NCBI RefSeq assembly: GCF_019801465.1
Contig: NZ_JAHVJA010000003.1
Location: forward strand, 1-64,000
DNA length: 64,000 bases
Direction of reading: 5' to 3'
DNA from: Leisingera daeponensis
GTDB taxonomy: Bacteria; Pseudomonadota; Alphaproteobacteria; Rhodobacterales; Rhodobacteraceae
Shown piece by piece: positions 31,980 to 56,148 of this stretch; positions within the stretch are counted from its first letter, which is position 1; every line of letters begins with the position of its first letter. The position numbers and the translations under genes were made by a program. The notes below the pieces were generated by a model. The model saw nothing but the letters and a program-made list of their open reading frames with translations. It was not told where the DNA came from and searched no databases.

Positions 31980-32322
31980 GCGGGCCTGATCCGCGTGTTG
32001 GGCGCGGGGCCGGCGGCTCGTCTCGGCCTGCTGCGGCGGCCAAGAAGCTGTCGGGAAAATGATACCCGGCGCAGCATTCCGGCGGCTCCCGGATCATTTG
32101 CCGGGCAGCCGGAACTCTGTCATTGCCACCCCCCGGCGAGTCTGTTAAACGCCATCCATCCTGAAGACCCCGGATTCGTTTCCGGGGTCGTTATGTTTGT
32201 CAGGATGTTCGAACTCGGGGACCTTCGGGGCCCTATAACTTGGCCACCTTCGGGGGGCTTCAACATAGCTGGGCCAAAGACAAGAACCTAAGGCCTGGCA
32301 CGCTAAACGGAAGACAGAAAGC
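31980..32322 (+). other. Leader region upstream of rplB
   Basis: This 343-bp stretch lacks any supported gene. It contains a perfect 9-bp hairpin, GACCCCGGA / TCCGGGGTC (32166-32189, loop of 6) followed by GTTATGTTT, a plausible terminator for the lysR-type gene. It also has two copies of ACCTTCGGGG (32221-32230 and 32246-32255) on either side of a CCCTATAACTTGG segment. rplB must be transcribed from here, since no ribosomal protein gene lies upstream; TATAAC at 32234-32239 is a possible -10 box without a clear -35. Confidence 0.5.
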
Positions 32323-54772: not shown

Positions 54773-54792
54773 CCCTAGCCCGCAGGACAAAG

Positions 54793-54824
54793 CAAAAGGC
54801 CCTCCCGCGCGGGTGGGCCTTTTG
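54793..54824 (+). terminator. Intrinsic terminator after the chemoreceptor gene
   Basis: CAAAAGGCCC / GGGCCTTTTG with an inner GC-rich loop, so the T-rich arm closes the stem. It ends the chemoreceptor transcript and isolates the aromatic leader that follows. Confidence 0.8.
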
Positions 54825-54848
54825 CCGTTTCGCCGGTCAATTTACGGG

Positions 54849-54877
54849 GTGACAGCCCTGCGAATCTCCGCTAGCGT
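54849..54877 (+). promoter_or_regulatory. Candidate promoter of the DAHP synthase leader
   Basis: GTGACA (54849-54854), 17 bp, TAGCGT (54872-54877). Transcription would begin at about 54884, next to the leader ATG at 54885, giving a leaderless or nearly leaderless mRNA. The trpL leader of Sinorhizobium starts the same way. Confidence 0.5.
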
Positions 54878-54884
54878 CCGGCCC

Positions 54885-54962
54885 ATGACCCGTAGCTATG
54901 CCGCATTCTGGTATTTCTTTTATCCGCGCCACATGGCGGACGGAGGGGTCAGCGCGTTCTGA
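54885..54962 (+). CDS. Aromatic-rich attenuator leader peptide
   Basis: A 25-residue frame MTRSYAAFWYFFYPRHMADG followed by GVSAF. Six aromatic residues in a row (F8 W9 Y10 F11 F12 Y13), plus Y5, are far above chance and include all three aromatic amino acids. It sits between a terminator and an attenuator hairpin, 106 bp ahead of the DAHP synthase gene. Ribosome stalling on these codons when charged Phe, Tyr or Trp tRNA is scarce would favour read-through. It has no ribosome-binding site, consistent with the near-leaderless start predicted. Confidence 0.82.
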   Translation: MTRSYAAFWYFFYPRHMADGGVSAF

Positions 54963-54993
54963 AGACAGACAGGAAACGCACCAGGATACCACC

Positions 54994-55022
54994 AACCGCC
55001 CGCAGCCCGCTGGCGGTTTTTT
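54994..55022 (+). terminator. Attenuator terminator before DAHP synthase
   Basis: AACCGCC (54994-55000) pairs with GGCGGTT (55012-55018), 11-nt loop, followed by TTTT to 55022. The 5-prime arm CCGCC can instead pair with GGCGG at 54935-54939 inside the leader peptide frame, giving a simple antiterminator switch. A further stem (GCGTTCTG with CAGGAAACGC, 54953-54980) could act as pause or protector. Confidence 0.8.
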
Positions 55023-55068
55023 CGTATCCGCCGCAGCGCCAAGGGCCTCCCGCCAAGGAAGCTGAAAC

Positions 55069-56148
55069 ATGACACCCCAGACCGAAAACCTCCGCATCAC
55101 CGGCATGCAGGAACTGATCTCTCCCGAGGACCTTGCTGCGCAGCTGCCCTCGACGGCGGCGGCCACCGATACCGTGCTGGCCAGCCGCACCGCCATTCAG
55201 GACGTGCTGCACGGCCGTGACGGCCGGGTGATCGCAGTGGTCGGCCCCTGTTCGATCCACGACCCCAAGGCGGCGATGGAATACGCCGAGCGCCTGGTGC
55301 CGCTGCGCGCGCGGCTGGCAGGCGAGCTGGAGATCGTGATGCGGGTCTATTTCGAAAAACCCCGCACCATCAGCGGCTGGAAGGGGCTGATCAACGATCC
55401 CGGCCTCGACGGCTCCTTCCGCATCAACGAGGGCCTGGGTCTGGCCCGCCGCCTGTGCCTGGACATCAACGCCCTGGGACTGCCGGTCGGCACCGAGTTC
55501 CTCGATACCGCGGTGCCGCAGTACATCTCCGACCTGGTCGCCTGGGCCGCCATCGGCGCCCGCACCACCGAAAGCCAGATCCACCGCGAGATGGCCTCCG
55601 GCCTCAGCTGCCCGGTCGGGTTCAAGAACGGCACCCGCGGCAACGTGCAGATCGCGGTGGACGCGGTGCGCTCGGCCGCCCATCCGCATCATTTCATGGC
55701 GCTGGCCAAGTCGGGGCGCGCGGCAATTGCGGCGACCAGCGGCAACCCGGACTGCCATCTGATCCTGCGCGGCGGCGGCGGCACCAACTATGACGCGGCC
55801 TCGGTCGATGCGGCTTGCAAATTGGCGGAAAAGGACGGCATCCGCGGCCATGTGATGATCGACGCCAGCCATGCCAACAGCGGCAAGGACCCGATGAAGC
55901 AGCCCGCGGTGCTGCGCGATGTGGCTGGCCAGATCGCAGGCGGCGATACCCGCATCACCGGTGTGATGATCGAAAGCCATCTGGTGGCGGGCCGCCAGGA
56001 CCTGGGCAAGGGGGAGCTCACCTACGGCCAATCCGTCACCGACGGCTGCCTGGGCTGGGAGGACACGGTGGCGGAGCTGGAGCATCTGGCCGCATCGGTT
56101 GCCAAACGCCGCACGGCTGCGGCGCAGCCGGGCCTAACAGAGGCCTGA
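55069..56148 (+). CDS. aroG: 3-deoxy-7-phosphoheptulonate (DAHP) synthase, class I AroG/AroF type
   Basis: A 359-residue enzyme that condenses phosphoenolpyruvate and erythrose-4-phosphate, the first step of the shikimate pathway. Motifs include VVGPCSIHDPKAAMEYAERL (metal-binding Cys near residue 60), YFEKPRTISGWKG, GTEFLDTAVPQYISDL, SGLSCPVGFKNGT, DASHANSGKDP and GVMIESHLVAG. Length fits the AroFGH group. It is under apparent leader-peptide attenuation sensing aromatic amino acids. Which feedback inhibitor it responds to cannot be read with confidence. Confidence 0.93.
   Translation: MTPQTENLRITGMQELISPEDLAAQLPSTAAATDTVLASRTAIQDVLHGRDGRVIAVVGPCSIHDPKAAMEYAERLVPLRARLAGELEIVMRVYFEKPRTISGWKGLINDPGLDGSFRINEGLGLARRLCLDINALGLPVGTEFLDTAVPQYISDLVAWAAIGARTTESQIHREMASGLSCPVGFKNGTRGNVQIAVDAVRSAAHPHHFMALAKSGRAAIAATSGNPDCHLILRGGGGTNYDAASVDAACKLAEKDGIRGHVMIDASHANSGKDPMKQPAVLRDVAGQIAGGDTRITGVMIESHLVAGRQDLGKGELTYGQSVTDGCLGWEDTVAELEHLAASVAKRRTAAAQPGLTEA

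Follow-up and report, generated by a model that had tools for sequence, protein, structure and literature searches.

What controls the class I DAHP synthase gene of Leisingera daeponensis, and does the short, strongly aromatic reading frame in front of it take part in that control? We addressed this question in a window of 64,000 nucleotides (the whole stretch of DNA that was analysed), in which a putative promoter, a leader, a terminator and the gene follow one another on the same strand. Our analysis makes it very probable that ribosome-mediated attenuation driven by aromatic codons controls the gene, and probable that Trp matters alongside Phe and Tyr, a three-way sensing to which the codons and the geometry of the leader point. 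The proposal draws on the ORF, its codons, the terminator, the complementary segments, their conservation and their covariation between lineages, all read from sequence, together with a switch position that was computed. The features to which we refer are as follows.

54849-56148, plus strand: putative promoter, leader, terminator and class I DAHP synthase gene in this order.
54849-54877, plus strand: predicted promoter, with -35 GTGACA (54849-54854), a 17-nt spacer and -10 TAGCGT (54872-54877).
54885-54962, plus strand: leader ORF of 25 codons, MTRSYAAFWYFFYPRHMADGGVSAF, probably leaderless, with similar leaders in relatives.
54906-54923, plus strand: regulatory codons F-W-Y-F-F-Y (TTC TGG TAT TTC TTT TAT), the Trp codon invariant in 34 clade sequences.
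54923-54944, plus strand: hairpin 1:2, UCCG CGCC (ACAU) GGCG ga CGGA, a competing state that would hold segment 2.
54935-54939, plus strand: segment 2 (GGCGG), the 5' side of the putative antiterminator, invariant in 34 of 34 clade sequences and covarying with segment 3 across lineages.
54994-55022, plus strand: intrinsic terminator AACCGCC-N11-GGCGGTTTTTT with a T-run, read from the sequence, its helix conserved.
54996-55000, plus strand: segment 3 (CCGCC), the 3' side of the putative antiterminator, within the 5' arm of the terminator and complementary to GGCGG at 54935-54939.
55055-55059, plus strand: AAGGA, the likely Shine-Dalgarno sequence of the DAHP synthase gene, read from the sequence.
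55069-56148, plus strand: class I DAHP synthase (AroF/G/H family; PF00793, TIGR00034), the proposed regulated gene.

The preliminary description of this DNA had named a 25-codon frame with six consecutive aromatic residues, a terminator with a T-run followed by the class I DAHP synthase gene, and a GGCGG within the leader able to pair with the terminator arm CCGCC. We located each of these elements, and the two five-base segments are indeed complementary. The description had also counted seven aromatic residues in the leader peptide; there are eight (Y5, F8, W9, Y10, F11, F12, Y13 and F25). The terminator begins 31 bases past the leader stop codon, and a generic scan of the window did not report it because its loop is 11 nt long and the scan allows 8. 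The leader and its gene are flanked by genes for a chemotaxis receptor and an HtrA-like protease. A separate terminator-like hairpin at 54792-54808, between the chemotaxis receptor gene and the promoter, was scored on the minus strand, and elsewhere in the window (32242-32320) lies an L2-Alphaproteobacteria ribosomal protein leader (RF03142, 64.1 bits).

The aromatic run is not due to chance. Within the 64-kb window, the leader is the sole ATG ORF of 12-45 amino acids with at least six aromatics in seven residues, and a single such ORF turned up in 60 dinucleotide-shuffled versions of the window combined. When the bar was set at five aromatics in seven, 72 ATG ORFs (some sharing a stop) reached it in 675 kb from the best 80 named loci; all except 4 of them, as read by eye from the list, are the leader before a DAHP synthase gene. 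The leader is also enriched in codons for the products of the pathway, the mark of an attenuator: Phe, Trp and Tyr make up fractions of 0.132, 0.036 and 0.101 of leaders vs 0.017, 0.009 and 0.016 of DAHP synthases. Codon choice differs as well. TTT accounts for 60% of leader Phe vs 12% in the downstream genes and TAT for 69% of leader Tyr vs 35%, when 105 partly near-identical loci (L001-L126) are pooled. This preference could be explained by slow decoding or by avoidance of structure.

The leader is found wherever in the order we found a near-full-length class I gene. It precedes the gene in 9 of 9 positives among 150 genomes of the family (the window's included), in 21 of 21 genomes of the genus, and at 22 of 22 near-full-length class I matches in 390 genomes of the order, where 24 genomes matched and the two with weak partial matches only were left out; the three samples overlap. 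Outside the order we considered 80 named loci, the best 80 of at least 589 relatives, using a fixed criterion of an ORF of 12-45 amino acids with at least four aromatics in seven residues that ends 60-230 bases before the gene. By this criterion 61 of the 80 have a leader, a count that leaves out L043 (added by eye), L053 (leader farther upstream), L060 (degenerate by eye) and L050 (cut off). Bradyrhizobium, Mesorhizobium, Devosia, Xanthomonas and Burkholderia are among the carriers, and Methylotenera, Solimonas, Aeromonas and Enterovibrio are among the named loci without a leader by the fixed criterion. The 78 distinct leader peptides contain Phe, Trp and Tyr in 61 cases, lack Trp in 15 and lack Tyr in 2.

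Within Rhodobacterales there are two leader types, FWYFFYP-like and FYWFR-like, and they separate on an enzyme tree that was made quickly and is flagged for long branches. The leader thus seems to travel with the gene. The class I lineages of the order comprise L008, L009 and L121-L126 on one side and L001-L007 and L111-L120 on the other, each with its own leader type.

Conservation within the leader follows two different rules. In the run it is the codons that are kept: among 34 distinct clade sequences the Trp codon is invariant, the three codons after it interchange Phe and Tyr and are non-aromatic in 2 of 102 cases, and the two outer positions of the run are aromatic in 31. Downstream of the run, bases are kept while residues vary, as with CGC, AGC, TGC and GGC at a single codon, and the Ala codon in segment 2 is GCG in 34 of 34. 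The preliminary description would have given up the attenuator had the aromatic run or the stems failed to recur in relatives; aligned across Rhodobacterales and beyond, both are conserved.

The helices themselves can be followed at two depths. In the window's clade, segments 2 and 3 are both invariant, and there is no covariation between them because they never vary there; in the window, their helix (2:3) comprises just 5 bp. Hairpin 1:2 is paired in 95.2% of cells with no compensatory change, and the terminator helix in 99.2% with one compensatory change (34 clade sequences), the two taken jointly being not clearly above shuffles (40-42 of 500). Across 41 diverse sequences, the 2:3 helix is 88.7% paired vs 14-53.4% when slid; none of 500 shuffles matched its covariation score and 2 of 500 its pair types. 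Its count of doubly changed pairs was reached in 81 of 500 shuffles and so is not beyond them, and sliding the helix by +1 column gave 11 doubly changed cells vs the 10 observed. Similarly, the terminator is 90.6% paired vs 27-61% when slid and its covariation score was reached by 0 of 500 shuffles, with 70 of 500 as high in the number of doubly changed pairs. Two of 6 sequences of the FYWF clade show a double change at one pair of the 1:2 hairpin; the 2:3 helix there is 100% paired, which is not above shuffles (178 of 500).

We also shuffled codons at the 66 loci that have both an ORF and a terminator behind it. The mean 2:3 score was 20.3 vs 14.0, with p<=0.05 in only 34 of the 66, and at L007 the best helix in this test differs from 2:3. 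A segment 1 upstream of the run was rejected as a general rule, as 10 of 66 loci reached p<=0.05 and codon shuffles equalled it at most loci; we therefore limit the claim to the hairpin after the run in the two Rhodobacterales clades. A relaxed search placed a terminator behind 101 of 105 leaders and found none behind L008, L059, L082 and L122. Taken together, complementary segments and cross-lineage covariation identify a predicted antiterminator that is mutually exclusive with the terminator.

Where transcription starts bears on how the leader would be translated. The promoter candidate of the preliminary description put the start almost at the leader ATG, and spacing conserved in relatives implies the same. 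In the window the -10 ends 7 nt upstream of the ATG; a generic scan did not report this promoter (54849-54877) because 8 of 12 consensus positions match and the scan needs 9. In 31 of the 32 distinct Rhodobacterales upstream sequences from the window's clade, the best -35/-10 pair is spaced by 17 nt, and in 30 of the 32 the -10 ends 6-7 nt before the ATG; the remaining two have an earlier in-frame ATG 7 nt past the -10 (by eye). The same 6-7 nt separate -10 and ATG in 7 of 8 sequences of the FYWF clade, where the promoter pair is weak (<=6 of 12) in 3 of 8, and of 23 sequences chosen from other alphaproteobacteria and xanthomonads, 20 have a distance of 6-8 nt. In Burkholderia, a -10-like TATAAA is located farther upstream (by eye). 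The conserved spacing makes a leaderless start likely, with transcription probably beginning at or beside the A of the leader ATG. Within the promoter spacer lies a further element, CGAATCTC (54861-54868), which most clade sequences retain and which might serve as an operator for some regulator. Allowing at most one mismatch, CGAATCTCNGNTAGCGT has a single occurrence in the genome, as does CGAATCTC together with the -10.

From these elements we propose the following sequence of events. RNA polymerase would begin transcription at the A of the leader ATG or right beside it, and the leader would therefore be translated without a Shine-Dalgarno sequence. When charged tRNA-Phe, tRNA-Trp and tRNA-Tyr are ample, the ribosome would clear the six aromatic codons and cover segment 2; the terminator (3:4) would then form and a transcript of about 138 nt would be released. 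If one or more of these charged tRNAs ran short, the ribosome would stall within the run with its front edge just short of segment 2, which would be free to pair with segment 3, blocking the terminator and allowing the class I DAHP synthase gene to be transcribed.

We modelled this switch by placing each codon in the A site in turn and folding the RNA between the ribosome and the terminator 3' arm. For the window leader, the predicted antiterminator probability is 0.95-0.98 with the ribosome at any of the six run codons and falls to 0.30 one codon later and to 0 beyond; with no ribosome it is 0.16. Over 74 distinct leaders, the antiterminator exceeds 0.5 at 405 of 441 aromatic run codons, and in 58 of 74 the last permissive and the last aromatic codon are at most one codon apart. 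When all codons after the start are considered, 420 of 491 aromatic codons are permissive vs 369 of 1258 others. In part the off state after the run follows from the design of the model, since a ribosome on later codons hides segment 2; what is informative in the folding is that the run ends just where this masking begins. The count is stable (403-408 of 441) for a ribosome front edge from +13 to +17 and drops to 384 and 374 of 441 at +18 and +19, front edges at which just 43 and 32 of the 74 leaders remain permissive at their last aromatic codon. Without a ribosome the antiterminator is favoured in 33 of 74 leaders, so untranslated RNA is predicted not always to terminate.

A covariance model, R1, built from 41 leaders, allowed a broader survey. 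In its own genome this site scores 75.6 bits and the next best 24.4; the three weaker loci looked at (L132, L133 and L135) have terminators and no aromatic-run ORF. In the class, at least 107 of 387 genomes match at E<=0.01. Among the matches listed there are 18 full-length ones of at least 42 bits, the window's included. Seventeen precede a class I DAHP synthase gene, one of these (L153) falling below the aromatic criterion, and the eighteenth (L148) sits at a contig end with its leader visible. Many of the listed matches below 42 bits span just the terminator end of R1, and none of the 12 such loci fetched has a DAHP synthase gene. Six of these 12 loci were read and judged plain terminators; at L157 and L159 an ORF with several aromatics stands in front, which we took as a gene end and chance.

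Across the phylum, 59 of 397 genomes matched R1 at E<=1e-6, and 55 of these matches precede a class I DAHP synthase gene (one, L205, under the aromatic criterion), 2 precede pheA and 2 pheS. The pheA and pheS matches (four genomes, 42.9-46.1 bits) look like classical Phe leaders and served as an unplanned positive control; the pheS match reads like E. coli pheM. In two genomes of one genus in the same phylum as the window (L211:267-1901 and L214:252-1970), chorismate mutase, prephenate dehydratase and DAHP synthase are fused in one frame behind a Phe leader; at least in L211, the fetched stretch ends before the frame does. The Burkholderia sRNA BcKCsr7 (RF02884) was considered and set aside, with an 11.5-bit match vs a gathering score of 59; it is below gathering in 16 DAHP synthase loci and did not appear at E<=5 in the Burkholderia locus L058.

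What does the leader control? The product of 55069-56148 matches PF00793 (308 bits, 4.7e-92) and TIGR00034 aroFGH (503 bits, 3.9e-151), and among the matches listed its closest named relatives are those of L. aquaemixtae (94% identity) and Leisingera sp. ANG-M1 (93%). The same 4.89-Mb genome encodes a class II DAHP synthase elsewhere, and none of the ORFs within 500 bases upstream of it has an aromatic run. In samples of the family, 99 of 100 genomes have class II and 9 of 150 have class I, the window's genome counted. Class II was also present in all 14 class I-bearing Rhodobacterales genomes checked (13 from other genera and one further genome of the window's genus), and accompanies class I in 5 of 8 genomes of other lineages. 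Control of DAHP synthase by the leader, as the preliminary description had it, is supported, with the correction that the enzyme is an accessory class I isozyme beside class II. The basal first step would fall to the class II enzyme, with class I as a starvation-induced supplement.

Several other readings have to be weighed against the attenuator that senses all three aromatic amino acids. The closest of them, that mainly Phe and Tyr are sensed and the single Trp codon is read with a stall too early or too brief to matter, strikes us as rather unlikely. It could appeal to C. glutamicum AroR (Phe-Tyr-Phe), which in the available text of PMC11802643 responds to Phe limitation and not to Tyr availability, to the absence of Trp from 15 of the 78 distinct leaders, and to L003 and L004, in which the antiterminator probability at the Trp codon is 0.03 and 0.00, so that a predicted stall there would not antiterminate. 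However, Trp is invariant in all 34 clade sequences, a Trp stall in the window leader gives a probability of 0.97, and, of the 58 folded leaders that contain Phe, Trp and Tyr, 50 are permissive for at least one codon of every kind. An additional role in trans for the released leaderless RNA or its peptide, after the manner of S. meliloti rnTrpL/peTrpL, seems improbable: residues around the run vary freely and follow the RNA pairing, although the probable leaderless layout is shared with S. meliloti trpL in the available account (PMC7298713).

The two remaining alternatives do away with attenuation by translation. A metabolite-binding riboswitch or a protein-bound leader might govern the terminator, with translation incidental. 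Apart from the conserved CGAATCTC in the promoter spacer, nothing points to this directly; in the window and 16 related loci, no Rfam family reaches its gathering score over the leader region, and conservation lies in codons and short complementary segments with no aptamer-like core, so that we hold this reading to be very improbable. The fold stability of the leader region is ordinary (z -1.32, with 20 of 200 shuffles equally good), which would suit an ordinary short ORF beside a constitutive terminator, the run being chance or part of an unrelated small protein. Yet the leader is conserved before the same gene across classes, far above shuffled expectation, and this leaves that account scarcely credible. 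Returning to the three-amino-acid attenuator, it is tempting to speculate that it works as a leaderless three-input OR gate, in which the response to each amino acid is set by the distance between its codons and the antiterminator segment, while other aromatic genes are tuned in trans by the RNA or peptide that is set free; in this full form we regard the idea as a long shot.

E. coli, according to the available text of PMC11802643, serves the three aromatic products by several isozymes and the repressors TyrR and TrpR. In the L. daeponensis window, one 25-codon ORF appears to sum three aromatic shortages at a single gene of the pathway entry. Such a leader would suit study of how a ribosome integrates several charged tRNAs, could provide a biosensor part, and gives a cue to annotate class I DAHP synthase loci. 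In the literature searched we found no earlier report of a three-aromatic proteobacterial leader; subscription papers fall mostly outside that literature, and earlier reports may therefore exist.

Ribosome-mediated attenuators are a known kind of regulation, and the study cited for the C. glutamicum aroR attenuator is reportedly that of Neshat et al. 2014. The aroR leader ahead of aroF is described as a ribosome-mediated attenuator with consecutive Phe-Tyr-Phe codons (PMC11802643, PMC4046766). Similar to our leader, it places consecutive aromatic codons before a DAHP synthase gene; it differs in belonging to an actinobacterium, in having no Trp codon and in its response to Phe rather than Tyr, as given in the available text. 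In proteobacteria, putative attenuators are listed for aroAI-alpha-Y > tyrA in Vibrio (PMC1173090) and for aroF in E. coli and Shewanella, where a Shewanella table that cites E. coli work has the entry 'sensing tyr-tRNA' (PMC2659441); the sources are a prediction website, this table entry and an older hypothesis. Attenuation is thus proposed there too before a proteobacterial class I DAHP synthase gene, and the available text of these sources describes no three-aromatic leader.

Another related system is S. meliloti trpL, for which a leaderless leader ORF, an alternative terminator and antiterminator, and functions in trans are reported (PMC7298713). It shares with our leader an alphaproteobacterial origin, alternative structures and the leaderless start, which is likely in our case; as far as that account goes, it has Trp codons only and its target is trpE(G). 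Two predicted motifs are also related (PMC8632094, as available). uORFC-13-1 similarly comprises a uORF and terminator ahead of a DAHP synthase gene, Acholeplasma aroF, whereas it is given for Acholeplasma and environmental sequences only, has a U-run encoding at least one Phe, and has a ribosome binding site. uORFC-8-2, a uORF attenuator before cysS in Rhodobacterales predicted by comparison, has the same order as our locus (both are in Rhodobacterales) but Cys codons and a tRNA synthetase gene.

The Phe leaders of pheA and pheS (RF01859, Phe_leader) share the aromatic run, the terminator and the antiterminator with our leader, and differ in having chiefly Phe codons and in preceding other genes. 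RF01859 has no match at gathering in the window and none at E<=10 in 54800-55200, and in the Burkholderia locus L058 it reaches 18.6 bits, below its gathering score of 55. In reading three amino acids made by the pathway under its control, the leader proposed here resembles that of E. coli ilvGMEDA, which differs in sensing the branched-chain amino acids and in being longer.
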